DNA of 64,000 nt from Opisthocomus hoazin (taxonomy: Eukaryota; Chordata; Aves; Opisthocomiformes; Opisthocomidae): NCBI RefSeq assembly GCF_030867145.1, contig NC_134443.1, positions 2,356,001-2,420,000 of the forward strand. The letters run 5' to 3'. Positions within the stretch are counted from its first letter, which is position 1, and each line of letters opens with the position of its first letter. This document shows positions 3,874-54,500 of this stretch, piece by piece. The translations under genes were made by a program, and so were the position numbers. A model generated the notes under the pieces. It did not search any database. It saw nothing but the letters and a program-made list of their open reading frames with translations, and had not been told where the DNA came from.

Positions 3874-4491
3874 CTACGAAACAGCCCAAAGACCAGAGGT
3901 GAGGAGGAGGAGGAGGAGGACGAAGGAAGAAGAGAGGCGCGGGCAGCCTGCCCCAGCCTGGAAGATGTGCAGTTTCTCAGCGTTGGGAAGGAAGACCCTG
4001 GCATCCTCCAGAGCCCCGTGAGCCGCCATGGTGAAGTTGGCGTCCCCCGAGGTCACCACGTCGAAGACACACGACTGGAAGTAGACGTCCTCCACAGGCA
4101 GCATCTCCTTGCAGAGCGCCCGGGCCGTCTCGGCGGCCACACGACCGGGGCAGCACTGGCTGCGGGAGATGCGCTGGCTGCGGGGACAGCCGCCCACGCA
4201 GAGCTGCAGGTCTTGCTCCTCTGTGAAGGCGCGTGCCACCTTCTCGGCTGCCCGGATGGAGAAGGAGAGCTGGCGGCCGGCCTGACGGACGGCGATGGTG
4301 GTGCCGATGTACTCCGCGCGGATCTCCACGTGCCGCCCGGGGCTGCGCTCCCGGATAGCCAAGCTGCTGCCGCCCGGCCTCTCGCCGCCGTTCACCGAGC
4401 CGTCCTCGAAGGCCGCCGGGAGGTTGTCGATCTCAGCCTGGTAGACCTTCTGGTCGATGCATTCCTTCATGTTCTTGAAGATGATGGTGAG
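3874..4491 (-). CDS. HJV: HJV last coding exon (C-domain, GPI signal)
   Basis: The exon opens after a CTCCCTGCAG acceptor with [20 protein letters not shown] and continues through the conserved cysteines to LHIFQAG and a hydrophobic C-terminus. TAG is at 3874-3876. The Leu run of the GPI signal is written by a CTC trinucleotide run, seen as GAG repeats on the plus strand at about 3902-3920. The omega site cannot be fixed by eye. Confidence 0.95.
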
Positions 4492-6609
4492 CTGCAGGGA
4501 GTGGATCGGGGGGGGTTTGGTCTGCCTTGCCGGGTAGCGGCTGTGTCCCCACCCCGGGAACCAGCTACCCCGGGACTGCGCACGTCTGCCTCACCGACGC
4601 GTCCGCCCCCGCCCCAAACCACCCCTCCCACGTTGCTGCAGTCCTCTGGGAAAACAGCAACCTTTCCTTCTTCCCTTCCTTTGCTTCCTTCTTTCTTTAA
4701 CATCATTTAAGCAGCTGAGAACTGAGACGGGGCCAAGCCTGCCTGCACGTGACCCACGGACCACAGAGCAACCCATCCCCAGGCAGCAATGGGAGCGCTT
4801 GCAGGTCTCTGGTCCCCTCAGGGACCTTCATCCCACTTGTTCCTGGTCCCAGGTGGGTTTCACTGAAGCTATTGCTGCCCTCCCCAGCCATCTTAGGGAG
4901 CGCAGCCGTTGCTGCATCCCGGAGGTGAACGGATTTGCTGCCGAACCCCGCGCCCGAGCGTTACCTTGCTGGTGACCGTAGCGTTGGAGCCCTTCGCCAC
5001 CGGAGAGCTGGTTGCTTGCACGAACAAGTAGTCATTGTCCAAGAGAGGCCAGGAGCCCTCCACTCGGCAGGTGTGGAAGTCGTCATGGAAGGTGCGGATG
5101 TGGGGGTCCCCGAAAGCCGCGCAGTGCTGGTAGCTGGGGGGCTGGCCGTACTTGTAGAGAAAACTCTTCTCGTAGTTGCAGATGTCGAGAGACGCGAAGC
5201 CCTGATGGTTGGGGGCCGGGGGCCGGGGGCGGGGAGGTGACGTGGGACCCTCCTTGGAGCAGTTGTTCTGGATCATGAGGTCCTCGATGCCGTGGACGGC
5301 GGAGTGGTAGGCCAGGTCGCCCCGGCACGTGCGAGCCGTCTTGCGGGTGCAGTGGGAGTAGGAGCGGAGGGCGTTGCAGTACGCCGCGTGCCTGCTGGAG
5401 CCGCGCAGGTTGAGCGTGGCAGCCACGTACTCCGAGTTGCAGCGCAGGATCTTGCACTGGGAAGAAACTGGGAGAGACGGGACGGCCCGGGGCATCCTGG
5501 TAGAGCTGTAGGAGCGGGGAAGGGCAGCCCCTGCTCCTCCCACCACCTCCCACCATCTGGCCCACTGCAGATCTCACCGTGGAGACACTTTCTGGAAGCA
5601 CTCATCTCCCTGTGTTAATGAACGCAGCGGCCAGTTTAAACGACCTGCTGCTTACGTGCCCCAGGGGAGCAGCCCCAGGGGAGCAGCCCCAGGGTTGCCT
5701 GCTGTGGAAACAGGCTGAAGCCTGGTGCGGGGGGCAGTCACGGGGCCGAAGGGGTGTCCTGAAGCAACTGGGATGTGGGATGGTACCTGGGGCACGAGCA
5801 CGGCCGAGAGCCAGGGCAGCAGTTGTGACTGTGGCCCTGGGACGTGGCTCGGGGACTCTTTGCCCCGGGGCTTGCCAGGGGACAAACGGGAATTTCTGAG
5901 CTGGGAAACCCCTGCTTTCCGTTTCAACCTTGGCCAGGCCGTGCAATCGCTCTTTTGTGATAGCTTTGACCGCACCAAGGACGTCCTGTCCCTCAGACGG
6001 GTTTTTTCCCATGTGCCACTGCTCCAGGAGAGCTAACGAGCTCGCCCCAGCAGGGCTCATTTAGCTCATTAAGCAGAGGGGTTATAAGGGACAGCTGCAC
6101 TTACAGGCTGGGCAGGGTGAGGTGCTGGGAAGTGGGTTTAGGTTTTGCAGGATGCAGGTCTTGGCTCTCCTAGCAGAGTGTTTGGGATGTGGGAAGGGAA
6201 GCGAGGGACTGAGTGGTGGATGCAGCTGGTGCCTTTTGCTGGAAGAGCTTGGACTTTGTGCCCTGCTGTCCCTGTCTTCTCTTGGGGGATGACAGAGCCT
6301 GGGAGGGCTCTCCCAGGGAAAGTGCCTGCTGTGGGAGAGCTGGGGGGTGCTCTCGGGGAGGCTGCCCTGGTGGGAATGCTGCCTGAGCCTCATGGCTGCG
6401 ATGAGGGGATCTTCTCCTTGCTCCAGTCACCTGCTGGGAGCTCTGCCATGGTGGTACCCTCCCTGCACCCCGGGGCTGCAGCTCCCGTGGGCATCCTTGC
6501 CATGTGGTTCCTTACCATGCCTGCAGCAGAGGAGGAGGAAGAGAGCTCGGAGGAAGAAGCCGGGGTTTTCCAGCTGCCCTGGGCTCTTACTGGGGGCAGG
6601 TTTCCCCAT
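3874..6609 (-). CDS. HJV: Hemojuvelin (RGMC), BMP co-receptor, complete
   Basis: Hemojuvelin is a GPI-anchored BMP co-receptor that raises hepcidin transcription and so controls iron balance. Three coding exons join in frame: 6516-6609, 4965-5467 and 3874-4491 (1,215 nt, about 404 aa; human about 426). The product has an N-terminal signal peptide with a Leu-rich core (residues about 18-29), the RGM cysteine region starting at CKILRC (36-41), an RGD at 80-82 within [11 protein letters not shown], an NCS sequon at 100, and the FGDPH autocleavage motif of the partial von Willebrand D domain at 150-154. The C-terminal half contains [18 protein letters not shown] and [13 protein letters not shown], which match HJV and not RGMA or RGMB, and ends in a hydrophobic tail fitting GPI attachment. 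Splice sites are GT/AG and no frame is broken. The glycine-rich insert of mammalian HJV is absent. A 5' UTR exon was not found. Orthology is by remembered human sequence, supported by SV2A, BOLA1 and SF3B4 nearby. Confidence 0.95.
4965..5467 (-). CDS. HJV: HJV coding exon 2 (RGM N-domain, cleavage site)
   Basis: The acceptor is a TCTCTCCCAG tract ending at 5468; an alternative AG eleven bases further in would break the frame with the signal-peptide exon. The donor is GTAACG at 4959-4964, so AGC-AAG joins CTC-ACC of the last exon and rebuilds TSK-LTIIFKN. The exon encodes the cysteine-rich region, the RGD, the NCS sequon and FGDPH. A proline-rich linker follows GPTS. Confidence 0.93.
6516..6609 (-). 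CDS. HJV: HJV coding exon 1 (signal peptide)
   Basis: The start at 6609 opens [10 protein letters not shown], comparable to MGEPGQSPSP in human HJV, and leads to the hydrophobic run [10 protein letters not shown]. The exon ends in phase 1 at a GTAAGG donor (6511-6515 carries GTAAG). The next exon completes the codon and gives VSSQCKIL across the junction, equivalent to HSQCKIL in human. A possible upstream acceptor (CCCCCAG) ends at 6627, which would leave only a short 5' UTR in this exon. Confidence 0.85.
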
Positions 6610-30680: not shown

Positions 30681-30686
30681 TTTATT
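30681..30686 (-). terminator. NR2F5: Candidate poly(A) signal of NR2F5
   Basis: The minus strand reads AATAAA about 860 bp beyond the NR2F5 stop codon, the first canonical signal I can find there. Cleavage would be near 30660. Confidence 0.45.
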
Positions 30687-31548: not shown

Positions 31549-31823
31549 TCACTGCATGGGGCCGTAGGGCCAGTTGAGGGTGGCCCCGGCCAACAGCATG
31601 TCGCGGATGAGGGTCTCGATGGGGGTCTTGCCGACCAGGCGGCTGAAGAAGAGCTGCTGGATGCCGGGGGCGGAGACGCTGCGCAGGGCGGGCAGGCGCA
31701 GGAGCAGGCGCCCGAAGCGGCTGGGCTGGCTCGGGTGCTGCCGCCGCACGTGCTCCTCCAGCGCGCACTGCGACTTCTCCTGCAGCCCGGCCACCTGCCC
31801 CGGGTCCGACAGCCCCACCGCGT
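31549..31823 (-). CDS. NR2F5: NR2F5 exon 3 (helices 9-12, stop)
   Basis: The acceptor GCCCCGCAG ends at 31824. The exon reads [20 protein letters not shown] through [15 protein letters not shown] and [20 protein letters not shown] to NWPYGPMQ and TGA at 31549-31551. The activation helix is intact, so ligand-independent co-regulator binding is likely kept. Confidence 0.95.
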
Positions 31824-32549
31824 CTGCGGGGCGGGGAAACTGAGGCACAGCCCCGCCCCTCCAGCTCTGCCCGCTCCGCCCCCACCCATTCATTCCCTCT
31901 ACAGCCAGCCCCGCCCCATCACCCCCACTTTAGCCTCACCCCATTGGAGCCCCACCCCACTAAGTCCCGCCCTAAGACCCACCCTACTAAGCTCCACGCC
32001 AAGCCCCCCCCATTAATCTCCTTCCCAAGCCCCACCCAGTCATCCCGAGCCCATTCATTCCCTGCCCACCCATCGACACCTGCCCTCTTTCAACCCCACC
32101 CCATTAAGCCCTTCCCCAAGCCCCACCCCATTATGCCCCACCCCCTTTAGTCCCACCCATAAAGCCCCACCCCATTATGCCCCACCCCATTTAGTCCCGC
32201 ACCATTTAGCCCCTCCCAGTCATCCCCCGCCCATTCACTCCCTGCACACCCATTAATGCTCACCCACTTGGGACCCCACCCCATTAAGCCCCACCCCCTT
32301 GGGACCGCACCTCGTTAAGCCACGCCCCATTTAGCCACACCCATTTATCCACCCCCTATTTAACCACACCCCATTTAGCCCGCCCCACCCCCAGCCCATT
32401 CATTCCTTGCCCATTCATCAACACCAACCCCACCCCCTCGGGACCCCCACCCCCTCAAGCCCCTCCCCTCTCGGCCCCGCCCCCCTAAGCCCCGCCCCCT
32501 CACCGGGGGAGAAGAGGGCGACAGCCTTGAGGCAGGCGTACTCTGCAGC

Positions 32550-32591
<42 letters not shown>

Positions 32592-35500
32592 GAGGCGGAT
32601 GTGGTCCATGAAGGCCACCACGCGGTCGGCGGCCATGGGCGCGGCGTGGAGCCCGGCGGCCGCCAGCAAGGGCGCGGCGTGCAACGGCAGCGCCGACTGC
32701 GCCGCGTTCAGCACGAAGAGCTCGCTCCAGCCCAAGCGGAGCAGAGCCACTTGATCCGAAAGCTGCAAGTCCGGGAAGAAGGGGATGCCCTTGGCCCACT
32801 CGACGGCGCTGAAGAGGAGCCGAGCGGCCAGCTCGCAGATGCCCTCGATGCCCACCACGCCGCCGGGCTGCAGGCACTGGGTGCCGTAGCGTGCCGGCGG
32901 GTACGGTTCGGCGCGGAGCAGCAGTGAGATGAAGCCGCTCAAGTAGCCGTGGCTGCCGTAGGGGTCCCCGGGGACCATGGGGTACTGGCCGGGGCTGCTC
33001 GGGGCGTGAGCCACGCGGCCCCGCTGCACGGCTGCGGAGGGGAGCAGGCGGTCAGCGCCCCGAAGCCCCCATCGCCGCCCTGCGTCCCCCCTACGCCCCA
33101 GGGATCAAACACACCAGGCTGGGGTGTACCCAGGGGTGCGGGGTGGGTGCTGGAGGGTCCCCAGGGCATGCCCTCACCCGTGTTAGAGGGGGACGTGGCA
33201 CCGAGGCTGGGGACAATCCCCCCCCCCCCAGTGACCCCCTCAGGGCTCGGCGTCCGACAGCTCCCACCCGGCTCTTCAGCCAGGATGGACATAAAATACG
33301 GCACACGGGATTTGGGGGGTCCCACACGCAAGCACCCCCTTCCTGCAAGGGGATGGTGCTAACGAAGGGCCCTGAGGAGATGCTATGGGTGCCCCCCCCC
33401 CCCCCCCAAAGTGCCAGCACCCGGGGGAGGGGGTCAGAAGCACCCCTCTGGGTCCCACCCCTTGCGTTTTTTTCATTTGGGGCTTAAAAAACTCCAAACT
33501 GGGGTTGTTTTCTCTCCCGTGGCGATGCCGTGAGCAGGGGTCCAGCCTCCTCCTCCTCCGCCCGGTGCCCCCTGCTCGCCCCCCGGCATCGCCGTCCCCC
33601 GCGGCGGGGGCAGGCTCCGAGCCCGCTTCAGCCTAATGCGGCGTGACAGCCCCAGGTGTCAGCCAGCGGTCGGGATCGGGGGGCCACGGGGACAGGGGGT
33701 CCCCAGGATCAGGGCACTGGGGGTCTCCTCCCGCTCCCCCCTGAGCCCTCAGGGTGCAGCGTGCAGCTCCCGCTCCCCCCAAACGCTCCCTCTGCTCAGC
33801 ATCGCCCCGGCGGCATTTGTGGGGTGCAGTCCCCTCCTCGCTGCCCGTGCAAGACCATGAGACCCCCCCCAAAAGCCCCTTTGCATCACCATGAACCCCA
33901 AATCCCTCTTGGAGCACCACGAACCCCAAGCCCCTTTGCTCTTCCATGAACCCCAAACCCCTTCTGCATCACCCCAAAACCCCTCTGAACCACCCTGAAC
34001 CCCTTTGCATCCCCCCTCACCTCCCCTTGAACCACCCCAAACCCCTTCACATCCCCCCAAACCCCTTCACATCCCCCCAAACCCCCTGTGCACTGCCCCA
34101 AACCCCTCTGTGTCACCCCAAAGCCCCTTTGAATGCCCTCCAAACCCCTTTGCACCACCCCAAACCCCTTCACATCCCCCCAAACCCCCTGTGCACGACC
34201 CCAAACCCCTTCACATCCCCCCAAGCCCCTTTGCACCACCCCAAACCCCTTCATATCCCCCCAAACCCCCTGTGCACCACCCCAAACCCCTTCACATCCC
34301 CCCAAGCCCCTTTGCACCACCCCAAACCCCTTCACATCCCCCCAAACCCCCTGTGCACCACCCCAAACCACTCTGCGTCACCCCAAAACCCCTTTGAATG
34401 CCCCTCAAACCCCTTTGCGCCACCTCAAACCCCTTTTGCATCCCCCACCAAACCCCCTTTGCATACCCCCCCCACCCCCTTTGCATCACCCCAAACCCCC
34501 AACCGCTTTTTTCCCCCTTTTTGGGCAAAACAATCCCTTCAAACCATTGAAGGGTGTGTCCTGGAAAAAAAACGTGGGTTTCAGCCCAAAAAAGCCACGG
34601 GAGCCGCCATGGAGGGCTTCCTCCCCCGGCTCCATCCACCCCGGCTCACCCGTCCTCCGGCAGCGCCGATGACCCCAAACCCGGCCGCCGGGTCGGGCCT
34701 CCCGGTCCCCGTGCCTCATCCCAGCTGATTTTCGGGAAGCCAAAATTTAATCCACCTTTCCCAGCTCAATCCTACTCCTGGGGCTGGCACCCCGGCACCC
34801 TCAGGGAATCAATCCAGCCTGGAGCTGCGCTCGGCTCCCAAAATGCCGGTTTTGGCACTGGATTCGGTGCCGGAACCGGTGCTGGATTGGGTGCCAGCTC
34901 CCAGCCCGGAACGCTGGGATAAGGGGCATCACGGGGAGCACAAGGCGGTGGGTTTGGGGCACCCCAACTCGAGCTGGTGTGGCCAGCGATGCCGCGATCG
35001 GATGGGGAAACTGAGGCACAGAGTAGCCGCACCCAGTAAATGAAATCCCCGGGAAGGTTTCACCCCCGGACGCTTTTCCGTCGGCATCCACGGCGTTTCC
35101 CGGTGCCTGGGGGTGCCGCATCCCTTGGCGGTTTCATGCCCATCTCAGGGCAACTGGGAGCCCCCCAAAAATCAGAGCTAAGAGGGGGTGCAGGGGGGGA
35201 GATGGGGGGCTCTGCCTGGGGAACAACGCCGTGCCGGGAGAGCCGCCGCGGCAGCGCCCATCGCGCCGGATCTCGGCATTCACCAGCGCCGGCAGCTTGC
35301 GGGAATTCCCAATTAAAACAAAGAGAAGAAAGACAAAAACAGCCCCAAACCCCAAAAGCCGGGATCTGACCCCAGACGACCCCGCTCCGCCTGGCTTCTC
35401 CAGCGCCGGGCACTCGGCTGGATTGATTTCTTCTCCCTCCCCAGGGATTTAATCCCCAGCTCCGGCCGTGCGAAGCCGGCAGAGGTTTGCGACGAGGGTG

Positions 35501-38500
35501 TCTCGCTGCACCCAGGACCGCCGCAAAAATCCCCCCCTCCCCCTGCCCCGGACACCCAATCGGCCTTTTTGGGGAAGAAAAAGGCAAACTGGGGGTTGGG
35601 CCGGGGCCGGTTTTGGCCCTGACCTTGCTCCCACCGAATTCCCATTGCTTTGTGCAAGCCGGGGGTGCGACGCCGCGGCCGTGCTGGGACGCTGGAAGGA
35701 TCACTTCCCCCCCCCCAGCCACAATCTTCCACCTTCTCTGAAATGCTGTGATTTCTTTTTTTACGCTAGAAAAGGCGACTTTGGAATTTGCGGGGTTTTT
35801 TTAAGGCTGGAAAAGGTGACTTCCCGCACGGGAGCGTCGCTGCCATCGCTGCTGCCGAAGGACCAAACCCACCGGCACCGGCTCGAGGTCTTGCGGAATA
35901 AATCCCGAGGAAAAGACAGAGCGGGGGGGGTCGAGCAGCTGGGCCCTCACTAGAATTATTTAATAATACTCAATTTATAAATAAGGACCTTGAAGATGAA
36001 TGAGGACCCCTCCAGCCCTTACTCCAGCAGGGAGGACGCCGCGCGGCAGAGCTTCAGAGCCGAGCTTTCGGCACGGCAGCGAAGCCGATGCCCCAACGCA
36101 CCGTTTCGGGCTTGAAAACCCCAAAAATCTGCTTTAAAGCTATTGTTTTTTAGGGAAAAAAAAAAAAATCAGCTGAAACTGTGCCGCTGGGGGTGGCTGG
36201 CGGCAGAGGGACCGATCCGCGGCGCATCGCCGCGAGCTTGGAACGCGATTTCAATGCCGGTCACGCGAAGTGTTCAGAGTAATTCACTTCGGCTTTACTG
36301 GACGCTCGTCCCAAAACGCCGAGTTCTCGAGCTTTTAGAGAATCTCTGTGTCGTTGCCCGCCAGCCCCCGGGTTTTTGAACAGCCCCGTCCCTGCGCTGA
36401 ATCTAACGGAGAGGAGCAGGGAAGCGTCCCCACCTCGGCGCGGCCCCGGACACCGAGCCCGAGAGCAACGCCGAGCTGGGGAGGTTACGCGACGATGTAA
36501 TTAAGTGGAATAAGAAATACGTTCCCTCACGGAGCCTTTCCCGTGGGAAAAGCCCCCCCAAAATAACATTATGGGGGGATTTGTCCCCTGGAAGGCAGAG
36601 CCAGGGGGAGGAGGGAGCCCCGAGCTCGCTGCTGGGGGGTGACGCCGCGTTTGGGGGTCACAACGCAGCCGCAGCCCTGGGGAGGACGGAGAGGGGCTCG
36701 GGGGGCTCGGCGGCGCCGGGGGCTGGGGCTCTCCCTGGTCTGGGGGGGCTCGCCCTGGGTGGCCGGCGCTGAGGGAGGGTAAAGAGCGAAGGAAAAACGA
36801 AAGGGAAGAGGGAGAGGAGTTTTCTCTTTCTCTTTTCCCCCTTTTTCTTTCCCTTTCCTTCCCCGCCAACCCTTTCTCAGCTGCTTTCGCTTTCTTTCTT
36901 TTACTTTCTCCTTCTTCAGGCGCTCCTTTCTCTTTCCCTCCCTTCCCTTTCTCTTTCTCTTTTTGGTTTCTCTTTTTTGCTCTCTCCCGTCCTCACCTTG
37001 CGCTTTCTCTTTCTCTTTTGTCTTCACCGTTCGGGCTCACTCGCTCCCTTCCTCCTTTCCCCTCTCCTCTCCTTTCCCCCCGTTCTCTTTTTTGTTCCGG
37101 CATTTTTTCCCCTTTCGCCCTTTTTTCCTCCCTTTCCCCCTTTTCTTTCATTTGATTTTTTTGCTCCCTCTCGCTCTTTTCCACGTTTCCCCCTCCCTTT
37201 CCTTTCTGCCTTCACTCTGGCTCTTCCTGGCTCTCGCAGCTCTCATTTCGTGCCCGCTCCCCGTTTGCGCCCCGGCCCCTGCCACCCTCTCGCCTTCTCT
37301 TGCCTCCCCTCTCCCTTTGCACGCTCTCTTCTTCATTTCCACCCTCTCTCCTTTTCCAGCCTCCATCCCCCTTCGGCATCCCCTCTCCTTTTCCCTCCTT
37401 TCTCCCTCTTTTTGAGCCTCTCTCGCATCCCCTCTCCTTTTCCAGCCTCTTTACCTTTTTGCATCCTCTCTCCCGCTGTTCCACCCTCTCCTGCTGTCAC
37501 ACCCTCTCTCCTTTTGCATCCCCTCTCCCTCTTTTCCATCCCCTTGCCTTCTTTTCCTACCTCTGTCCTTCTTTTCCATCCCCTTTCCTCCTTTCCCATC
37601 ACCTCTCCTCGTTTTCCATCCCCTCTCCCTTTCCGTCCCCTCTCGCCTTCTTCTCCGTCCCTTCTCCTTTCACCTCCCTTCTCCCACTTTTCCATCCACT
37701 CTCCGTCTTTTCCATCTTCTCGTCCTCTTTTCCACCCTCTCCCCTTCTTTTACATCCCCTCTCCCTTTTTTGCATACCCCCTCCTTTTCCATCCTCTCTC
37801 CTCTTCCAACCCCTCTCCCACTCTCCCGCACTCTGCCTTTCTCGTGCACCCTCTCCTTTCGCATCCCCTCTCCTTTCTCTCCTTTTCCATCCCTTCTCCT
37901 TTTGCACCCTCTCTCCCTCTTTTCCATCCTCTCTCCCACTTTTCTACGCTCTGTCCTTCTTCTGCATCCCCTCTCCTTTTCCATCCCCTCTCCCACTTTT
38001 CCACCTTCTGTCCTTCTTTTCCATCCCCTCTCCTTTTCCATCCCCTCTCCCACTTGTCCACCTTCTGTCCTGCTTTTCCATCCCCTCTTCTCTCCCATCC
38101 CTTCTCCCACTTTCCCACACTCTGCCTTTCTCCTACATCCCCTCTCCTTTTCCATCCCCTCTCCCACTTTTCCACGCTCTGTCCTTCTTCTGCATCCCTT
38201 CTCCTTTTCCATCCCCTCTCCCACTTTTCCACCTTCTGTCCTTCTTTTCCATCCCCTCTCCTTTTCCATCCCCTCTCCCACTTTTCCACGCTCTGCCCTT
38301 CTTCTGCATCCCTTCTCCTCTTCCATCCCCTCTCCTTTTCCGCCCTCTCTCCCACTTTTCCACCTTCTGTCCTTCTTTTCCATCCCCTCTCCCGCTTTCC
38401 CACCCCCTTGCACCCTCTCTCCTTTCCCACCCCTTCTCCCTCTCCCCCCCCCTCGCCCCTTCCGCCCCCTCGCCGGCCCTTCCCCGCGCCCCCTCCCCAC

Positions 38501-38817
38501 CTTCCCGCCGCATCCCCACGCGGAGGCACTTGCGGAGCCGGCAGTACTGGCACTGGGTTGCGGTGGTGCTGGTCCACGGGGCAGTCGCGGCCCCCCCGGC
38601 AGCTGTAGGCCAGGTTGCGCCGCACCGAGCGCTTGAAGAAGCTCTTGCAGCCCTCGCAGGTGAGCTGCCCGTAGTGCTTCCCGCTCGCCCTGTCCCCGCA
38701 CACCAGGCAGTCCCCCGCAGCCTTCCCCGCAGCCTCCGGGCCGCCGGCAGCGCGGGGGGGGGGAGCAGGAGGAGGGGGGGGAGGAGGCTCCGGCCACGGC
38801 CCCGCCGCCAGGGCCAT
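31549..38817 (-). CDS. NR2F5: COUP-TF family nuclear receptor, NR2F5
   Basis: An orphan nuclear receptor that binds direct repeats of AGGTCA. Coding exons are 38501-38817, 32504-33031 and 31549-31823 (1,119 nt once one surplus base is disregarded, about 372 aa; NR2F2 is 414). The N-terminus is short and Pro/Ala-rich. The DNA-binding domain (about 37-102) has Cys pairs 37/40, 54/57, 73/79 and 89/92 and P-box CEGCK. The ligand-binding domain contains [36 protein letters not shown] and [20 protein letters not shown], and ends with helix 12 [11 protein letters not shown] then [27 protein letters not shown] and [10 protein letters not shown] agree with NR2F1/2/5 and differ from NR2F6 (FFKRTIRRNL, CQIDQHHRN, VDKLGRLQVD), while some Ala-rich changes resemble NR2F6. 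NR2F1 and NR2F2 are much closer to each other than to this protein, and the setting between HJV and SV2A fits NR2F5. Splice phases match the COUP-TF pattern. A diverged NR2F6 is the main alternative. Confidence 0.85.
31885..32490 (+). repeat. Degenerate CCCACCCCATTAAGCCC repeat, NR2F5 intron 2
   Basis: The intron (31824-32503) is filled with about 35 variants of CCCACCCCATTTAGCC and CATTAAGCCCCACCCC, period around 16-18 bp. Confidence 0.85.
32504..33031 (-). CDS. NR2F5: NR2F5 exon 2 (most of the ligand-binding domain)
   Basis: The acceptor CCCCTCCGCAG ends at 33032 and the exon opens AVQRGR, the conserved junction of COUP-TFs. It runs unbroken through the linker and helices 1-8 to LKAVALFSP and ends in phase 1 at GTGAGG (32498-32503). 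Confidence 0.95.
33870..34500 (+). repeat. CAAACCCCTTTGCA repeat, NR2F5 intron 1
   Basis: Units such as CACCCCAAACCCCTTCACAT and CCCCCAAACCCCCTGTGCA alternate, about 18-22 bp each, with a higher-order block of roughly 78 bp repeated near 34150-34360. C-rich on the plus strand, G-rich in the transcript. Confidence 0.9.
34505..36790. other. Unique part of NR2F5 intron 1
   Basis: No exon is seen. AT-richer unique blocks at 35945-36010 (AATTATTTAATAATACTC and AATTTATAAATAAGG) and 36220-36390 may be regulatory; introns and alternative first exons of other COUP-TF genes carry such elements. One copy of the dispersed 16-mer lies at 35004-35019. Confidence 0.3.
36800..38475 (+). repeat. 1.7-kb polypyrimidine array (CCCCTCTCCTTTTCCAT)
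   Basis: Almost pure C/T on the plus strand. The left part is irregular; from about 37490 it becomes a minisatellite of CCATCCCCTCTCC and CACTTTTCCACCTTCTGTCC modules, with a roughly 60-bp higher-order unit. It abuts NR2F5 exon 1 on its 3' side, so the nascent RNA is a G/A-rich repeat. Open frames of many hundred codons over it are artefacts. Confidence 0.95.
38501..38817 (-). CDS. NR2F5: NR2F5 exon 1 (start, DNA-binding domain)
   Basis: The ATG at 38815-38817 starts [14 protein letters not shown]; the frame stays open upstream through repeats, so the start rests on resemblance to MAMVV... starts of other COUP-TFs and on length. Both zinc fingers are intact except that the run at 38555-38557 carries one base too many, shifting the frame inside HHRN-QCQYC. 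With the run read one base shorter the finger is perfect and the exon ends RREG in phase 1 at GTGGGG (38495-38500). I treat this as a base-calling error because the selected motif is complete on both sides. Confidence 0.85.
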
Positions 38818-41345: not shown

Positions 41346-41993
41346 CCTCCCCCCCCCCCCCCCCCCGTTGCAACCTCGCCCCCCCACAGCCCCCCCAACC
41401 CCCTTTCTCTCCCCGCAGCCCCTCGCCGAGGAGGGGGGGGCTCAGCACCCATGGGCCCCCTGGCCCGCGCCATCCGCGCCAAGCTGACGGCGGCCCTGCA
41501 GCCCACCCACCTGCAGCTCCGGGACGAGAGTGGGCGCCACGGGGGCCCCCCCCGGCGCCGAGACCCACTTCGCCGTGCTGGTGGTGAGCCCCCTCTTCGC
41601 CGGGGTGCCCCCCCCTCCAGCGGCACCGCCTGGTCCACGCCGCCCTCCGCGCCGAGCTCGCCGGCCCCCTGCACGCCCTCGCCATCGTCGCCAGGACCCC
41701 CCAGCAATGGGCCAGCGACCCCCGCATGCCCCCCGCCACCCCCCTGTCTGGGGGGGTCCAAGCACGAGCGGCGGGGGGCCGGGGAGTCGCCCAGCGACGG
41801 GTGACGGCCGCGACCCCCCCCCTCAGCCCTGGTGACACCGCGGCGGGGGGCACGCACACCCCAAATTTCGGCTAAAATATGGGGGTGACCCCCACCCCGC
41901 GTCACCCCCGGCTGCCCTGTGGGTCCCGCCCTGGGCGCAGCCCCTCCCCCGCCGCCCGCTCCCACCCCGGGGGGGATTTTGGTGCCTCCCCCA
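40731..41993 (+). repeat. Left copy of the 1.26-kb duplicated segment
   Basis: From about 40731 to the gap the sequence is repeated almost base for base at 42194-43503. The two copies differ mostly in C or G run lengths. It contains half of the intron repeat and the BOLA1 coding exon. Confidence 0.9.
41451..41804 (+). CDS. BOLA1: BolA family member 1, left copy, with frame errors
   Basis: BOLA1 is a mitochondrial BolA protein that works with GLRX5 in Fe-S cluster and thiol redox homeostasis. The exon opens after a CCCCGCAG acceptor (ends 41418). The ATG at 41451 gives MGPLARAIRAKLTAALQPTH, then LQLRDESG; later pieces PPGAETHFAVLVVSPLFAGV, LQRHRLVHAALRAELAGPLH, ALAIVARTPQQW and CLGGSKHERRG lie in successive frames, and TGA is at 41802-41804. 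Three single-base shifts separate them, at C or G runs. The conserved His of the BolA fold (LHALAI) is present. Human BOLA1 has about 30 further N-terminal residues with the mitochondrial signal, and the frame here is open upstream (GGSAP before M), so the true start may lie in an earlier exon that I did not find. About 117 aa are covered. Confidence 0.85.
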   Translation: MGPLARAIRAKLTAALQPTHLQLRDESGRHGGPPRRRDPLRRAGGEPPLRRGAPPSSGTAWSTPPSAPSSPAPCTPSPSSPGPPSNGPATPACPPPPPCLGGSKHERRGAGESPSDG

Positions 41994-42193
41994 NNNNNNN
42001 NNNNNNNNNNNNNNNNNNNNNNNNNNNNNNNNNNNNNNNNNNNNNNNNNNNNNNNNNNNNNNNNNNNNNNNNNNNNNNNNNNNNNNNNNNNNNNNNNNNN
42101 NNNNNNNNNNNNNNNNNNNNNNNNNNNNNNNNNNNNNNNNNNNNNNNNNNNNNNNNNNNNNNNNNNNNNNNNNNNNNNNNNNNNNNNNNNNNN
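41994..42193. other. Assembly gap of 200 N
   Basis: Exactly 200 N, a conventional unknown-size gap. The sequence after it restarts about 1.26 kb back relative to the sequence before it. Confidence 0.98.
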
Positions 42194-43503
42194 TCCCATG
42201 CAACCCCCATGCCCCCCCCCTTTCTGCCCCCCTACAATAAACGGGGGCCTGATCCCGCAGACCCCCAAAACTCCCCCCCCCCAGAACCCCCCCTAACCCC
42301 CCTTCCCATCACCCCCATTTACAGGGTCTAATCCTGCAGAGCCCCCCCCCCCCCCAAATGACCCCCCCCATGCATCACCCCCACCCAGAAACCCCCAACC
42401 CCTCCCTTCCTATCACCCCCCATTTTATAGGGTCTGATCCTGCAGAGCCCCCCCAAACTCAGCCCCCCGGCTCCCCCCCTAACCCCCCCTTCCGAGCCCC
42501 CCCCAAACTCAGCCCCCGGCTCCCCCCTAACCCCCCTTCCCATCACCTCCATTTACAGGATCTGATCCTGCAGAGCCCCCCCCCCCCTCAAACTCAACCC
42601 CCCCCATCATTACACCCCCCCCTTGAACACCGCTTCCTGCTACCCCCCCCCATTAACGGGGCCTGATCCTGCAGAGCCCCCCCAAAAACTCCCCCCCCCG
42701 CAACCCCTTGCCCCCCTCTCTTCTTCCCCCCCATAAACGAGGCCTGATCCTGCAGAGCCCCCGCTAAACTCACCCCCCCCATGCAACCCCATGCCCCCCC
42801 CCATCACCTGCATAAACGGGGCCTGACCCTGCAGACCCCCCCCAACCTCCCCCCCCCCCCCCCCCCCACCCCGTTGCAACCTCGCCCCCCCACAGCCCCC
42901 CAACCCCCTTTCTCTCCCCGCAGCCCCTCGCCGAGGAGGGGGGGGGCTCAGCACCCATGGGCCCCCTGGCCCGCGCCATCCGCGCCAAGCTGACGGCGGC
43001 CCCTGCAGCCCCACCCACCTGCAGCTCCGGGACGAGAGTGGGCGCCACGGGGGCCCCCCCCGGCGCCGAGACCCCACTTCGCCGTGCTGGTGGTGAGCCC
43101 CCCTCTTCGCCGGGGTGCCCCCCCTCCAGCGGCACCGCCTGGGTCCACGCCGCCCTCGCGCCTCGCCGAAGCTCGCCGGCCCCCTGCACGCCCTCGCCAT
43201 CGTCGCCAGGACCCCCCAGCAATGGGCCAGCGACCCCCGCATGCCCCCCGCCACCACCCTGTCTGGGGGGGTCCAAGCACGAGCGGCGGGGGGCCGGGGA
43301 GTCGCCCAGCGACGGGTGACGGCCGCGACCCCCCCCCCTCAGCCCTGGTGACACCGCGGCGGGGGGCACGCACACCCCAAATTTCGGCTAAAATATGGGG
43401 GTGACCCCCACCCCGCGTCACCCCCGGCTGCCCTGTGGGTCCGCCCTGGGCGCAGCCCCTCCCCCGCCGCCCGCTCCCACCCCGGGGGGGATTTTGGTGC
43501 CTC
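42194..43503 (+). repeat. Right copy of the duplicated segment
   Basis: Starts right after the gap at the point matching about 40735 and continues past the end of the left copy into unique sequence with the BOLA1 poly(A) signal. It is about 45 bp longer than the left copy because its C-runs are longer. Confidence 0.9.
42957..43319 (+). CDS. BOLA1: BOLA1, right copy, with more frame errors
   Basis: The same exon as at 41451, from MGPLARAIRAKLTAA to TGA at 43317-43319. It has additional one-base insertions in C-runs that the left copy lacks (for example just after KLTAA), so its frame is lost earlier. This copy is continuous with the 3' UTR and poly(A) signal. I regard both as one gene represented twice; a real tandem pair is possible but less likely. 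Confidence 0.75.
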   Translation: MGPLARAIRAKLTAAPAAPPTCSSGTRVGATGAPPGAETPLRRAGGEPPSSPGCPPSSGTAWVHAALAPRRSSPAPCTPSPSSPGPPSNGPATPACPPPPPCLGGSKHERRGAGESPSDG

Positions 43504-43585
43504 CCCCCCCCCCCCCCCCAGTTTTAATTTTTAGACAGATTCACCATCTGGGGCGCAGCCCCCCACCATCCCGCACCCCCCCAAA

Positions 43586-45392: not shown

Positions 45393-45576
45393 TCACTGCA
45401 GGACCTGGCCCCGCGTCTCGGGCAGTTTGAGGGCGAGGGAGCTGCCGAGGGCGAGCGCGGCGGAGGCCAGGAGGATGGGCACGGCCTTGGTGATGCCCAC
45501 GAAGGAGGTGAAGATGCTGATGCCCAGCACGGCCGCCAGCTTGCAGAGGGCGTTGAGGAAGCCGAAGGCCGTCGTC
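45393..45576 (-). CDS. SV2A: SV2A last exon (TM 11-12, stop)
   Basis: Opens after CGCCCGCAG with RTTAFGFLNALCKLAAVLGI and ends ALKLPETRGQVLQ, TGA at 45393-45395. Undamaged. Confidence 0.97.
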
Positions 45577-48500
45577 CTGCGGGCGCGGGGACAGCGGGGT
45601 GGCAGCGGCGCCGGACGGGACCCCCAGGCTGGCCGCCCACGGCCCCGCAACCGGCGCCCGACAGGCCGCAGCTGGCACCCCTCAACTGGCACCCAACACC
45701 CCACATCTGGCACCCAACACCCCACAGCTGGCACCAAGCACCCCTCAACTGGCACCCAACACCCCAGATCTGGAACCCAACACTCCACATCTGGCACCCA
45801 GCAGCCCAGACCTGGTACCCAGCAGCCCAGACCTGGTACCCAGCACCCCTCAACTGGCACCCAACACCCCACAGCTGGCACCAAGCACCCCTCAACTGGC
45901 ACCCAACACTCCACATCTGGCACCCAACACCCCACATCTGGCACCCAGCACTCCAGATGTGGAACCCAGCACCCCTCAACTGGCACCCAACACTCCACAT
46001 CTGGCACCCAGCACCTCAGATCTGGCACCCAGCACCCCTCAGCTGGCACCCAACACTCCACATCTGGCACCCAGCACCCCAGATCTGGAACCCAGCACCC
46101 CTCAACTGTCACCCAGCACCCCAGATCTGGCACCCAACACCCCAGATCTGGCACCCAACACCCCACATCTGGCACCCAGCACTCCACATCTGGCATCCAG
46201 CACCCCAGATCTGGCACCCAGCACACCTCAACTGGCACCCAACACTCCACATCTGGCACCCAACACCCCACATCTGGCACCCAGCACCCCAGATCTGGCA
46301 CCCAGCACCCCTCAACTGGTACCAAACACCCCACATCTGGCACCCAGCACCCCTCAACTGGCACCCAACACTCCACAGCTGGCACCCAGCACCCCAGATC
46401 TGGAACACAGCACCCCACAGCTGGCACCCAACACTCCACATCTGGCACCCAACACTCCACATCTGGCATCCAGCAGCCCAGACCTGGTACCCAGCACACC
46501 AAATCTGTCTCCGAACACCCCTCGACTGGCTCCCAACACCCCACATCTAGCACCCAGCAGCCCACATCTGGCACCCAACACCCCACAGCTGGCACCAAGC
46601 ACCCCTCAACTGGCACCCAGCACCCCAGATCTGGAACCCAACACTCCACATCTGGCACCCAGCAGCCCAGACCTGGTACCCAGCACCCCTCAACTGGCAC
46701 CCAACACCCCAGATCTGGCACCCAACACCCCACATCTGGCACCCAGCACTCCAGATGTGGAACCCAGCACCCCTCAACTGGCACCCAACACTCCACATCT
46801 GGCACCACACTCAGCACCTCAGATCTGGCACCCAGCACCCCTCAACTGGCACCCAACACCACATCTGGCATCCAGCAACCCCAGATCTGGCACCCAGCAC
46901 ACCTCAACTGGCACCCAACACTCCACATCTGGCACCCAACACCCCACATCTGGCACCCAGCACCCCAGATCTGGCACCCAGCACCCCTCAACTGGTACCA
47001 AACACCCCACATCTGGCACCCAGCACCCCTCAACTGGCACCCAACACTCCACAGCTGGCATCCAGCACCCCAGATCTGGAACCCAGCACCACACAGCTGG
47101 CACCCAACACTCCACATCTGGCACCCAACACTCCACATCTGGCACCCAGCAGCCCAGACCTGGTACCCAGCACACCAAATCTGTCTCCGAACACCCCTCA
47201 ACTGGCTCCCAACACCCCACATCTAGCACCCAGCAGCCCACATCTGGCACCCAACACCCCAGATGTGGCACCCAGCACCCCTCAGCTGGCACCCAGCACC
47301 CTACAATCAGCACCTGACACTCCACATCTGGCATCCAGCACCCAGATCTGGAACCCAGCACACCTCAACTGGCACCAAACACCCAGAACTTCAGATCTGG
47401 CACCCAAAACCTCACCCCCAGCACCCCACCTCTGGCACCCAACACCCAAAACCTCAGACCTGGCACCCAGAACCTCACCCCCCAGCACCCCATATCTGGC
47501 ACCCAGCACCCAAAACCTCAGACCTGGCACCCAAAACCTCACCCCCAGCATCCCACCTCTGGCACCCAACACCCAAAACCTCCGATCTGGCACCCAAAAC
47601 CTCTCACCGGGCACCATACATCTGGCACTCAGCACCTGAAACCTCACCCCCAGCACCCAAAACCAGAGACGTGGCACCCAAAACCTCACCCCAAGCACCC
47701 CATATCTGGCACCCAGCACCCGAAACCTCAGACCCGGCACCCATCCCCTCCCACCAGGCCCCCCACCTCCAACACCCCACGGCCACGGGGCCGCCCGCAC
47801 CTCTTGTCGGAGGGATAGAGCTCGACGGTGAGCACGTCGAGGGGCGTTCCAGGAGGCGATGCTGACGCCGCCGAAGAGGCAGAGCAGGGCTATCATGGCC
47901 GACTCGCTGTTGCCGAAGGAGAGGAAGAAGCAGCTGACGCAGGACATGACGCTGGAGCCGGCTGCGGGGGGACATGGGGACACGTCAGGGCTGGGGGAGG
48001 GGACCAACGGTCGGGGGGGGGGGGAACTCAGGCAGGAGATCACGGCGTCACGGGAGGGTTTGGGTGGAAGGGCCCTTCCGAGCCCACCCAGCCATGGGCA
48101 ACGGCCAACTTCTCATGGAATCACGAAGGCTGGAAGAGACCTCGGAGGTCACCAAGTCCAACCACGGAATCACGAAGGCTGGAAGAGACCTCGGAGGTCA
48201 CCAAGTCCAACCACGGAATCACGAAGGTTGGAAGAGACCTCGGAGGTCACCAAGTCCAACCACGGAATCACGAAGATTGGAAGAGACCTCGGAGGTCACC
48301 AAGTCCAACCACGGACTCACGAAGGTTGGAAGAGACCTCGGAGGTCACCAAGTCCAACCACGGACTCACGAAGGTTGGAAGAGACCTCGGAGGTCACCAA
48401 GTCCAACCACAGACTCACGAAGGTTGGAAGAGACCTCGGAGGTCACCAAGTCCAACCACGGACTCACGAAGGTTGGAAGAGACCTCGGAGGTCACCAAGT

Positions 48501-51500
48501 CCAACCACGGACTCACGAAGGTTGGAAGAGACCTCGGAGGTCACCAAGTCCAACCACGGACTCACGAAGGTTGGAAGAGACCTCGGAGGTCACCAAGTCC
48601 AACCACGGAATCACAAAGGTTGGAAGAGACCTCGGAGGTCACCAAGTCCAACCACGGACCTCACGAAGGTTGGAAGAGACCTCGGAGGTCACCAAGTCCA
48701 ACCACGGACTCACGAAGGTTGGAAGAGACCTCGGAGGTCACCAAGTCCAACCACGGACTCACGAAGGTTGGAAGAGACCTCGGAGGTCACCAAGTCCAAC
48801 CACGGACTCACGAAGGTTGGAAGAGACCTCGGAGGTCACCAAGTCCAACCACGGACTCACGAAGGTTGGAAGAGACCTCGGAGGTCACCAAGTCCAACCA
48901 CGGACTCACGAAGGTTGGAAGAGACCTCGGAGGTCACCAAGTCCAACCACGGACTCACGAAGGTTGGAAGAGACCTCGGAGGTCACCAAGTCCAACCACG
49001 GAATCACAAAGGTTGGAAGAGACCTTGGAGGTCACCAAGTCCAACTGTCAACCCAACATCCCCACGCCTGCTAAACCATGTCCCCAAGTGCCACGTCCAC
49101 ACGGTTTTGAACCCCTCCAGGGATGGGGACTCCACCACACCACCCTGGGCAGCCTGGGCCAACGCTTGACCACTCTCTCAGTGAAGATTTTATTTTTTCC
49201 CGATCTCCAACCTGAACCTCCCCTGAGACAACTTAAGGCCGTTGCCTCTCGTCTTGGTGCCCAGCGACAGGACAAGGGGCAATGGGCACAAACTGGAGCA
49301 GAGGAAGCTCCAGCTGAACCCGAGGAAGAACTTCTTCACTCTGAGGGTGACGGAGCCCTGGCCCAGGCTGCCCAGGGAGGCTGTGGAGTCTCCTTCTCTG
49401 GAGATATTCCAACACCCCTGGACGCGTGCTGTGCCCCCTGCTCTGGGTGACCCTGCTTGGGCAGGGGGTTGGGCTGGGGGACCCACAGAGGGCCCTGCCA
49501 ACCCCCCCATGCTGGGATTCTGTGATTCTGTCCTGTCGCTGGTGACCGGGGAGCAGAGCCCAGCCCCCCCTCGCTCCCCCCTCCTGTCAGGGAGCTGCAG
49601 AGAGCGATGAGGTCCCCCCTCAGCCTCCTCTTCTCCAGGCTGAGCAGCCCCAGCTCCCTCAGCCGCTCCCCATGGGCCTTGATCTCCTCCAGCCCCTCCC
49701 CAGCCTGGCTGCCCCGCTCTGGCCACGCTCCAGCCCCTCCAGGTCCTTCTCGGAGTGAGGGGCCCGGAGCTGAGCGCAGCCCTCGAGGGGCGGCCTCGCC
49801 ACGGTCCCTGCCCTGCTCCCGCTGCCCACCCCGTTGCTGATCCAAGCCCGGATGGTGCTGGCCGCCTTGGCCACCCGGGCACGCTGCTGGCTCCTGCTCA
49901 GCCCCGCCAGGTCCTGTTCCACGGGGCAGCTCTCCAGCCGCTCCTCCCCAAGCCTGGAGGGCTCTGTGGGGTTGGTGGGACCCATGGGCAGGATCTGGCC
50001 CGTGGCCCTATTGGACCTCAAGCCGTTGGCCTCGACCCATGGACCCAGCCCCCTCCGTGGAGGACAGGCTCGGGCTGCGCAGAGCCCCGTCCAGCTTGAC
50101 CTCGAGCATCTCCAGGGATGGACCATCTCCCACCCCTCTGGGCACCCCCTGCCAGGGTCCCCCCACCCCCAGCGCGACCGGTTCCTCCCCCCGCGCCCAC
50201 CCAGCATGCGAGGCGGCCGATCTTGTCCATGAGCAGGGCCGAGACGATGTTCCCGGGGAGCACGGCCAGGGTGCCCAGGAAGCTGACGAAGTAGACCATG
50301 TAGGCGTTGTTGTCGTCGCTGAAGTCCAGCTGGCAGCCCTCCTTGTTGTGCAGGAAGGTGCTGTTCACCACCCGGCCTGTCGATGAACTTGTACTCAAAG
50401 AGATCTGTCGGGAGGGAGACGGGGTTCGGTGGGGTCTCCCCCCATCCCCAACCCCACCCGGGACCACCCTGACCCCCCCCACCCTACCCGTGTTGTAGAA
50501 GACGGTGGAGATGAAGGTGCAGTTCTTGAAGAAGGTGTTGCTGGAGGTGATGTCCTCGAAGTAGCACTCCTCGAAGAGCGAGTCCTCGAACGTCACCGAC
50601 TTCATCTTCAGGCCGATGAACCTGGTGGCAGCGGCGGGGGGAGAGCCCAGCTCAGCACCTCCACTGGTGCAACGAGCGGGCCCGGCCTCGGCCCCCCACG
50701 CACTTGTCGTTGAAGTACTCCCCGCCCTGGTGGATCTGGTTCTCCAGGGTGAAGTTGAAGGTGAAGTGCCGGACCTTCTCGCGGGTGAAGAGCTTGGTGC
50801 GCGAGGCGTACTCGATGTTCTGCAGGTGCTTGATCATGTCCGGGAACCAGACCGTCAGCCCGTAGTAGCTGCGGGGAGAGGGGGCTGGGCGCGGGCACCG
50901 CCACACCAGTCCCATCCCAGTGCTGCCAGTCCCGGCCCCAGTCCGAGCCCAGTGCTGCCAGTCCCATCCCCAGTCCTGTCCCAGTGCTGCCAGTCCCATC
51001 CCCAGTCCTGTCCCAGTGCTGCCAGTCCCGTCTCCAGTCTCGTCCCAGTGCTGCCAGTCCCATCCCCGTGCTGTCCATCCCATCCCCAGTCCCGTCCCAG
51101 TGCTGCCAGTCCCATCCCCAGTCTCGTCCCAGTGCTGCCAGTCCCATCCCAGTGCTGTCCATCCCATCCCCAGTCCCGGCCCAGTGCTGCCAGTCCCGTC
51201 CCAGTGCTGCCAGTCCCGGCCCCAGTCCCAGCCCAGTGCTGCCAGTCCCATCCCCAGTCCTGTCCCAGTGCTGTCCATCCCATCCCCAGTCCCGTCCCAG
51301 TGCTGCCAGTCCCATCCCCAGTCTCGTCCCAGTGCTGCCAGTCCCATCCCAGTGCTGTCCATCCCATCCCCAGTCCCAGCCCAGTGCTGCCCCAGTCCCA
51401 TCCCCAGTCCCGTCCCAGTGCTGTCCATCCCATCCCCAGTCCCGTCCCAGTGCTGCCAGTCCCATCCCCAGTCTCGTCCCAGTGCTGCCAGTCCCATCCC

Positions 51501-54500
51501 AGTGCTGTCCATCCCATCCCCAGTCCCGGCCCAGTGCTGCCAGTCCCGGCCCCAGTCCCATCCCAGTGCTGCCAGTCCCATCCCCAGTCCTGTCCCAGTG
51601 CTGCCAGTCCCATCCCCAGTCCTGTCCCAGTGCTGTCCATCCCATCCCCAGTATCGTCCCAGTGCTGCCAGTCCCATCCCAGTGCTGTCCCAGTGCTGCC
51701 AGTCCCGTCCCAGTGCTGTCCATCCCATCCCCAGTCCTGTCCCAGTGCTGCCAGTCCCGTCCCAGTGCTGTCCATCCCATCCCCAGTCCCATCCCAGTGC
51801 TGTCCATCCCATCCCAATGCTGCCCATCTTGTCCCAGTGCTGCCCATCCCGTCCCAGTTCCATCCCAGCGCTGCCAGTCCCATCCCAGTGCTGCCCATCC
51901 CATCCCAGTCCCATCCCAGTGCTGTCCATCCCATCCCAGTTTCATCCCAGTGCTGCCTGTCCCATCCTGGTTCTGTCCCAGGGCTGCCCATCCCATCCCA
52001 GTCCCATGCCAGTGCTGTCCATCCCATCCCAGTTTCATCCCAGTGCTGCCTGTCCCATCCTGGTTCTGTCCCAGGGCTGCCCATCCCATCCCAGTCCCAT
52101 TCCAGTGCCGCCCATCCTGTCCCAGTCCCATCCCAGTGCCACCCATCCCGTCCCAGTCCCGTCCCAGTGCTGCCCACCCCGTCCCAGTCCTATCCCAGTG
52201 CCACCCATCCCGTCCCAGCACTGCCAGGCTCCGGCCGTGCTGCAGGGTGACAGCACCCCTGGGTGCCCCCCGGCCCCACCTGAAGGACATGGTGAACCAC
52301 ACGGCCATCATCATCAGTGTCACCCGCCGGTACTCGGGCGCGAAGCACTGCTGGAAATTGCTCCAAACCTGCGGGGGGGAGGCCAGAGGTGACGCGGGGA
52401 CACAGGGGGGTTCGGGGACACCGGGGGGGGGTGCGGGGCCACCCGGGGTGGTGGGACCCCGCCTCACCTGCTGCGAGAGGTTGAGGAACCGCACGAGCCA
52501 GCGCCGGTACCACGTCCCGGTGTCCGACTGGATCTCGATGAGCTCGTCCTCCCGCTTGATGGTCTTGATGTGAGTGACCTGAGGGGTCCGGGGGGGTCAC
52601 AGTCTGGGGACACTCGGGACCACCAGCCTCGGCCGAGGCTCCCAGGTGAGACCCGTCCCCACCTCGTGCCTCAGTTTCCCCACTTGTTACAGCTGGGCTG
52701 ACCCCTCCTGGGGGTGCTTTTCCTGGGGGTGGGAATTTGCAGCCCCCCCGCCCCTCCAGGACCCCACCCCCATGCTGCTGGGTGCCCCGGGGTGGGGGGG
52801 GTCCTTACCGAGAAGACCCTCTCAGGGTGGCCCTTGGCCCTCATGTTGGTGTCGTGGACCTGCTTCAGCACCATCCAGGCCTCGTCGTGCTTCCCGTTCT
52901 GCAAGGCAGCGCCAGGCTCACCCCAGGGCCAAGCCCACCCCCGTCCCACCACCCACCCGGGGTCCCTGGCAGGGACCCCCATCTCTGCCACCAGCTCAGG
53001 GTCCTTGCCTGGGTCCCACCACTCATCAGGGGGGGGTCCCTGTGTCGGTTCCCCCATCTCTATCACCCACTCGGGGTCCCTGACGGGGTCCCCCCACCTC
53101 TACCACCTGCTCAGGGTCCTTGCCTGGGTCCCACCACCCACTGGGGGGTCCCTGCATCGGTTCCCCCATCTCCATCACCCACCCGGGGTCCCCTGCCTGG
53201 GTCCCCCCATCTCTGCCACCCACTCAGGGTCCCTCCTTGGGTCCCACCACTCACTCAGGGTCCCTGCACCGGTTCCTCCATCTCCATCACCCACCCGGGG
53301 TCCCCTGCCTGGGTCTCCCCATCTCTGCCACCCACTCAGTGTCCCTGCTTGGGTCCCACCACCCACTCAGGGTCCCTGCATCGGTTCCCCCATCTCCATC
53401 ACCCACCCGGGGTCCCCTGCCTGGGTCCCCCCATCTCTGCCACCCACTCAGGGTCCCTCCTTGGGTCCCACCACTCACTCAGGGTCCCTGCACCGGTTCC
53501 TCCATCTCCATCACCCACCCGGGGTCCCCTGCCTGGGTCTCCCCATCTCTGCCACCCACTCAGTGTCCCTGCTTGGGTCCCACCACCCACTCAGGGTCCC
53601 TGCATCGGTTCCCCCATCTCCATCACCCACCCGGGGTCCTCTGCCTGGGTACCCCCATGCCTGCCACCCGCTCAGTGTCCCTGCTTGGGTCCCACCACCC
53701 ACTCAGGGTCCCTGCACCGGTTCCCCCATCTCCATCACCCACCCGGGGTCCTCTGCCTGGGTACCCCCATGCCTGCCACCCACTCAGTGTCCCTGCTTGG
53801 GTCCCACCACCCACTCAGGGTCCCTGCCCACCACCCCACCACCCACTCCAGGTCCCTGCTTGCACCCCCAACCCCCGCACCCCCCCAGTAGGGTCCGGCC
53901 CCACGCCCCCCCCCTCCCCCGGCCCCGCTCACCTCCAGGAAGAAGCGGGGGCTCTCGGGCATGGTGGTGAGCGCCCCGATGGCGAAGACCGAGGGGAAGG
54001 CGCAGACCAGGACGAAGACCCTCCAGCTGTGGAACTGGTACGCCGAGCCCATCTGGAAGCTCCAGCCTACGGGGACGGGCCAGGGCATGGTGGTGCTGCT
54101 GAGACCCACCAAGCTCGCCGCGCGCTCCGGCCCCGGGGGTCTCTTACCGTAGTGGGGGATGATGGCCCAAGCCATGGCGGAGGCGTAGATGCCCCCGATC
54201 ATCCAGAACATGCAGAGCCAGCTCAGGTGCTCCCCGCGCTTCTCCTGCGCCAGGAACTCCGAGAAGTAGGAGAAGACGATGGGGATGGAGCCGCCGATGC
54301 TGGGGGGGGGGTGGAGGGCAGAACGGTGTCACCGCTCGCCCCGCTGTCCCCACCGCCACGGAAAACGGGGGGCTCTCGGCACGGCGAGGGAGCGGGAGGG
54401 AGCTGAGCCCCCCCCACCCGCCTGGGACCCCCCGCTGGGTGCCGTGCCCCCTTACCCCACGCCCGAGAGCAGGCGGCAGAAGAGGAAGGTGCCGTAGCCT

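Follow-up and report, generated by a model that had tools for sequence, protein, structure and literature searches.

A probable NR2F5 gene, a fourth COUP-TF, at its ancestral locus in the hoazin genome

The window analysed here, 64,000 nt of the genome of the hoazin, Opisthocomus hoazin (NC_134443.1, contig C30:2356001-2420000), holds a three-exon gene for a COUP-TF nuclear receptor that is almost certainly NR2F5, judging from gene order, intron code, a phylogenetic tree and approximately unbiased (AU) tests. The gene lies on a single contig in the order RBM8A-TXNIP-HJV-NR2F5-BOLA1-SV2A-SF3B4, within about 91 kb (Table 1). The available sections of PMC8608329 name Rbm8a and Txnip as the gnathostome neighbours of Nr2f5 and place Bola1 beside a lamprey Nr2f gene; the text of its locus section, figure aside, does not name HJV, SV2A or SF3B4 as Nr2f5 neighbours. 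The gene order around the hoazin gene fits the Nr2f5 locus. An earlier note on this DNA, made from the letters alone, had placed a fourth COUP-TF, NR2F5, between HJV and BOLA1 at 31549..38817. Synteny, intron code, tree and AU tests bear out that placement, and the limits are exact: on the minus strand, the start codon lies at 38817 and the stop codon ends at 31549.

The structure of NR2F5 is that of its family. Both introns start with GT and end with AG, one at the end of the DNA-binding domain (DBD) and the other inside the ligand-binding domain (LBD), and both are in phase 1 when exon 1 is followed in its second frame; the zinc-finger coding region has no intron. The start of the protein resembles those of the hoazin's own NR2F1 (MAMVVSSWRDP) and NR2F6 (MAMVAGGWAEP), two genes that we named by reading their sequences. 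Pfam recognizes zf-C4 in the piece of exon 1 upstream of a frame break discussed below (76.3 bits, E = 2.5e-21) and Hormone_recep in the LBD (109.5 bits, E = 2.1e-31), and the closest PDB chains are COUP-TF2/NR2F2 (3cjw, E = 1.2e-125) followed by NR2F6 (8c5l, E = 1.1e-91). Eight zinc-binding cysteines align with those of NR2F1 and NR2F6, if the one residue that the frame break leaves undefined is counted; the CEGCKS recognition box is identical to that of the relatives, and the LBD retains the W and F of WSELFVLN as well as the C-terminal activation motif. Read in two frames, the 371 codons contain no stop codon. The earlier note took both domains to be intact save for a single base in a homopolymer; this is right, but the homopolymer is just three C long. 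The GC content at third codon positions is 0.90, 0.93 and 1.00 in the three exon pieces, compared with 0.64 and 0.60 for the GC content of the introns, and NR2F5 therefore has the codon-position bias of a gene.

NR2F5 is present as a single copy in the assembly. Searching the genome (1.48 Gb in 415 contigs) with the exon 2 protein and the exon 1 DNA gave one 100% match each, both at this locus. The seven matches to the exon 2 protein comprise itself, NR2F1 on contig C41 (76%), NR2F6 on contig C27 (70%) and four weak matches to other receptors or fragments; among the 16 matches to the exon 1 DNA, the second best is at 77%.

As assembled, NR2F5 cannot yield a whole receptor. The frame break in exon 1 falls inside the second zinc finger, between ...DQHHRN and CQYC..., and spoils the product from there onward, exon 1 being 317 nt long where phase 1 requires 3n+1. 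The break is probably an assembly error, because other genes in this assembly are broken too and because a stretch nearby is dense in indels. First, exon 1 of the hoazin's own NR2F1 (stretch L023 5450-5905 on the 91-Mb contig C41, which from chicken we take to be probably the Z) loses its reading frame after the start and before the DBD; an eleven-C homopolymer there is the most likely site. Exon 1 of its own NR2F2 (stretch L036, C10:27322001-27331000) is frame-broken inside the DBD at a site without a run; this exon was located by its DNA, no NR2F2 exons for the LBD turned up in the assembly, and a 200-N gap lies beyond exon 1 (L036 2288-2487). BOLA1 is also broken, and SV2A is broken twice: at about 47843 an additional C in a short run shifts the frame, directly behind 40 residues that match SV2A of 9okf without a difference, and a second break lies on the minus strand near 50395, between LFEYKFID and GRVVNSTFLHNKEGC.

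Second, the stretch at 40737-41992 reappears on the far side of an assembly gap, and over 1253 aligned pairs the two versions show 3 mismatches against 41 indel events. Thirty of the 41 are one-base indels, 25 of them of C. Real divergence would be expected to produce an excess of mismatches over indels, and we therefore read the two versions as a double assembly, and a real tandem duplication of BOLA1 is unlikely. The repeat around the gap is probably a false duplication and, as such, also a gauge of indel error in this assembly, only 2-5 kb from NR2F5 exon 1. Exon 1 is itself flanked by minisatellites, at 37426-38408 and 38915-39523, with units of about 57 and of 41 or 81 bases; their presence on both sides may explain why this exon is difficult to assemble.

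The best-surviving alternative, which we nevertheless consider unlikely, is that this is an NR2F5 orthologue with a real frame break, which would make it a pseudogene that was inactivated very recently, or is still polymorphic, in the hoazin lineage. Taken as assembled, the frame change in the second zinc finger speaks for it, and several further observations count against an assembly error or for a decaying gene. The broken run is only three C long, and of the 30 single-base indels that separate the two versions of the repeated stretch, just 4 fall in runs of 2-3; contig ends may, moreover, be richer in errors than interiors. The hoazin's own NR2F6 is unbroken in its four exons in the same assembly, and the matched stretches of HJV have no break. 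NR2F5 alters 29 of 241 positions that are invariant in the other NR2F rows, and repeated losses of Nr2f5 across vertebrates are described in the available sections of PMC8608329. Against such a pseudogene stand the breaks in NR2F1, NR2F2, BOLA1 and SV2A, genes whose loss is not credible and of which NR2F2 is broken without any run; the excess of indels over mismatches in the doubly assembled stretch; and the lack of any further defect in the 371 codons.

Other forms of decay can be set aside. A processed pseudogene is ruled out by the presence of both family introns, and an ancient one by the state of the 371 codons, which have a single frame break and no stop. Under assumed neutral rates (2e-9 substitutions per site and year, one indel for every ten substitutions, CpG hypermutability omitted), the probability that 371 codons would remain this whole without selection is 0.059 at 20 million years, 2.3e-4 at 50 million years and 1.2e-8 at 100 million years. 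On these figures, a loss of NR2F5 in the bird ancestor is very unlikely for the hoazin lineage, although inactivation in the most recent few million years would still be compatible with them.

We next consider which COUP-TF lineage the gene represents. In a tree of five rows (the window gene, the hoazin's own NR2F1 and NR2F6, and NR2F2 and NR2F6 from the PDB), NR2F1 groups with NR2F2 (support 99/97) and the two NR2F6 rows group together (100/100), with the window gene outside both pairs. AU tests reject pairing the window gene with NR2F1 (p=0.0085), with NR2F2 (p=0.0096) and with the hoazin's own NR2F6 (p=0.00016). The protein is 75.4% identical to the hoazin's own NR2F1 (254/337), 72.9% identical to its own NR2F6 (245/336) and 75.9% identical to the NR2F2 LBD of 3cjw (183/241), whereas NR2F1 and that same NR2F2 LBD are 96.7% identical. 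The fold family, intron positions, recognition box and C-terminal motif are as in NR2F1 and NR2F2, but with an identity of only 75-76% and a location on another contig, the gene is clearly diverged from both, as had been claimed before. A recent duplicate of NR2F1 or NR2F2 is rejected by these identities together with the AU tests.

Intron positions separate the gene from NR2F6 (EAR-2). According to the available sections of PMC8608329, all extant Nr2f subfamilies have two phase-1 introns, and Nr2f6 alone adds a third, of phase 2, within the second zinc finger. The hoazin's own NR2F6, which sits on another contig, has this extra intron (one exon ends in ...LSYTCR and the next begins with SNRDCQIDQHHRN). 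The window gene is not NR2F6, because it lacks the zinc-finger intron that NR2F6 of the same genome carries, and NR2F6 membership is rejected by the AU test as well. The two outcomes that the earlier note had named as fatal to its proposal, a grouping with NR2F6 and a recent duplication of NR2F1 or NR2F2, were thus examined with the five-row tree and the AU tests, and neither was found.

The Nr2f5 genes of fishes, amphibians and some reptiles, among which svp46 of zebrafish is counted, share with the window gene the two-domain COUP-TF architecture, two phase-1 introns, the absence of a zinc-finger intron and the Rbm8a/Txnip locus. The motifs CRGxRDCP, DPY, YLSGFIS and EWAK and the Pro in NWPYxP are common to the window gene and presumably to zebrafish Nr2f5. 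The Phe of YLSGFIS in the window gene also appears in LTGFIS, one frame of a newt NR2F5 primer given in an excerpt of PMC3628982, at a position where NR2F1 and NR2F2 have Tyr. The window gene differs from other Nr2f5 in its very GC-rich codons, in a change of Phe to Leu before the recognition box and in the one frame break of the assembly.

Some comparisons pull away from NR2F5. The residues that the window protein shares exclusively with one relative number 18 for NR2F6, 7 for an unauthenticated zebrafish Nr2f5 sequence and 4 for NR2F1. When RXR-gamma and NR2E3 were included as outgroups, the window gene stayed unplaced, both in a seven-row tree and in an eight-row tree that also contained this zebrafish sequence. 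Identity to the unauthenticated zebrafish protein is 76.3%, hardly above the value for NR2F1, and that protein is itself 86.4% identical to the hoazin's own NR2F1. The 18 residues shared with NR2F6, Ala, Pro, Ser and Gly among them, may reflect GC-driven convergence or a shared NR2F5/6 ancestry; the available sections of PMC8608329 make Nr2f5 the sister group of Nr2f6. Origin by a lineage-specific duplication of NR2F6, NR2F1 or NR2F2, followed by divergence, could draw on these 18 residues and on the roughly even identity of about 73-76% to each paralogue, but it is highly improbable given the rejection of all three pairings, the absence of an NR2F6-type zinc-finger intron and the position of the gene in the RBM8A-TXNIP-HJV-BOLA1-SV2A block.

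Table 1. Features of NR2F5 and its surroundings; positions are those of the window unless contig C30 is given
Feature	Position	Strand	Details
NR2F5 gene	38817-31549	minus	three exons
NR2F5 exon 1	38501..38817	minus	317 nt; start, short Ala/Pro/Gly-rich N-terminus, C4 DNA-binding domain
Frame break in NR2F5 exon 1	38555..38557	minus	CCC against two C in the aligned own NR2F1
NR2F5 exon 1 donor GT	38500-38499	minus	
NR2F5 intron 1	33032..38500	minus	phase 1, 5469 nt; minisatellites at 33950-34499 and 37426-38408
NR2F5 exon 2	32504..33031	minus	528 nt; hinge (AVQRGR...SSPGQY...DPY...YLSGFIS) and first part of the LBD
NR2F5 intron 2	31824..32503	minus	phase 1, 680 nt
NR2F5 exon 3	31549..31823	minus	275 nt; remainder of the LBD, C-terminus NWPYGPMQ
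AATAAA, candidate poly(A) signal	30681..30686	minus	the only one from the stop codon to 27000
HJV	3877..5573	minus	RGM_N 100.6 bits; RGM_C 103 and 223.7 bits
BOLA1	41451..41760	plus	BolA 36.2 bits on the longer piece; two frame breaks at or near C runs
Assembly gap	41994..42193		200 N
Second assembled copy of 40737-41992	42195..43507		includes BOLA1; beyond the gap
SV2A exons	45396..56229	minus	frame breaks at about 47843 and about 50395
RBM8A	C30 2332472-2332861		100% and 95% to the two parts of an unauthenticated human probe
TXNIP	C30 within 2350001-2356000		best PDB chain TXNIP, E = 1.9e-35
SF3B4	C30 within 2420001-2426000		best PDB chain SF3B4, E = 1.2e-111

The manner in which NR2F5 has diverged was followed at 241 columns in which the rows for NR2F1, NR2F2 and NR2F6 agree (for the DBD, only the hoazin's own NR2F1 and NR2F6 provide rows). 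NR2F5 retains 212 of these residues, and of its 29 changes, 14 introduce Ala, Gly or Arg, whereas Pro is never the new residue. The earlier note had described GC-driven changes to Ala, Gly, Arg and Pro; this stands for the first three residues and fails for Pro. In the DBD, the changes at otherwise invariant positions include Leu in place of Phe immediately ahead of the recognition box and Gly in place of Asn in the second finger.

These features place the gene beside those reported as hidden in birds. Excerpts of PMC8449477 describe genes hidden in very GC-rich regions of bird genomes and tie this to their content of Gly, Ala, Arg and Pro (GARP) and to accelerated protein change. Hoazin NR2F5 resembles them in its high GC content, its changes to Ala, Gly and Arg, its having been reported missing and its proximity to an assembly gap; with no change to Pro among the 29, the pattern described in those excerpts fits in part. 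It is likely that NR2F5 is one more 'hidden' GC-rich avian gene, hidden rather than lost.

In a published survey of the family, birds have no NR2F5. The available sections of this survey, PMC8608329, report Nr2f5 from alligator, gecko and green turtle, whereas Pelodiscus (another turtle), birds and mammals are described as lacking it; chickens are said there to have lost Nr2f5 while largely retaining the flanking loci, and Xenopus laevis 'Nr2f4' is held to be properly named Nr2f5. Excerpts of PMC4339804 name three receptors that chicken and mallard have in addition to those of humans; NR2F5 is not one of these, and it is given for frog. NR2F is not named in the main texts of three papers on missing avian genes (PMC12954441, PMC8449477 and PMC6321700), and no report of a bird NR2F5 was found in the portions of the literature searched, supplements and gene databases lying outside that search. 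The impression in the earlier note that an avian copy is little described or undescribed is in keeping with this literature.

Other observations were made on the same genome. Between two SV2A exons lies a further minisatellite (45675-47574), in which a 21-base unit is repeated about 90 times. Fragments at 14263-15219 of the window (minus strand) and in stretch L030 are what we take to be the end of a CR1-type long interspersed nuclear element (LINE) reverse transcriptase. Contig C15 carries two long nuclear copies of mitochondrial DNA (L021 at about 6.49 Mb and L022 at about 6.58 Mb), in opposite orientation and about 80 kb apart. In the stretches examined, both span ND4 to ND1, with protein genes named from their translations, in the order ND4, ND5, CYTB, a forward tRNA (Thr by position), tRNA-Pro (reverse), ND6 (reverse), a stretch in the position of the control region, 12S, 16S and ND1; tRNA-Glu was not detected in these inserts. 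Set beside the exact gene order of avian mitochondria, that of both copies is avian. Bird mitochondrial genomes are rearranged relative to those of other vertebrates between ND5 and tRNA-Phe, according to an excerpt of PMC7720580. The mitochondrial gene order also rejects the reading that the DNA belongs to a crocodile, turtle or lizard, groups with known Nr2f5 genes. A scan of viral contigs for stray relatives from vertebrates yielded three stretches that matched a pattern, none of which encoded a relative.

Taken together, the observations at the locus make it likely that the hoazin carries a bird NR2F5 at the ancestral vertebrate position, protein-coding and working, with an assembly indel as its sole defect. 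The reading frame would then be whole in the animal and the gene would be expressed. As in other members of the family, its two C4 zinc fingers with the CEGCKS box would bind direct repeats of AGGTCA, as a homodimer or together with RXR, and its COUP-type LBD would dimerize with itself or with RXR and recruit corepressors or coactivators, so that NR2F5, as an orphan nuclear receptor, would tune retinoid-responsive genes. Zebrafish nr2f5, according to excerpts of PMC4546582 and PMC12045641, responds to retinoic acid, is expressed in the ventral retina and is an essential factor for the upper jaw. By analogy with these sites, avian NR2F5 possibly has a role in patterning the beak or the retina. 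A wider proposal, which may well prove wrong, is that birds generally kept a working NR2F5, hidden by its extreme GC content, that became a distinctly avian, fast-evolving fourth COUP-TF, with targets that could have been altered by its changes in the DBD and at 29 of the 241 invariant positions.

For the hoazin lineage, at least, NR2F5 was very probably not lost in the avian ancestor, and if the gene is what it appears to be, the COUP-TF count of the hoazin rises from three to four. NR2F5 is an ordinary kind of gene found where it has been said in print to be missing, and its probable presence would correct a published gene loss and counsels caution in inferring losses from the GC-rich chromosomes of birds.

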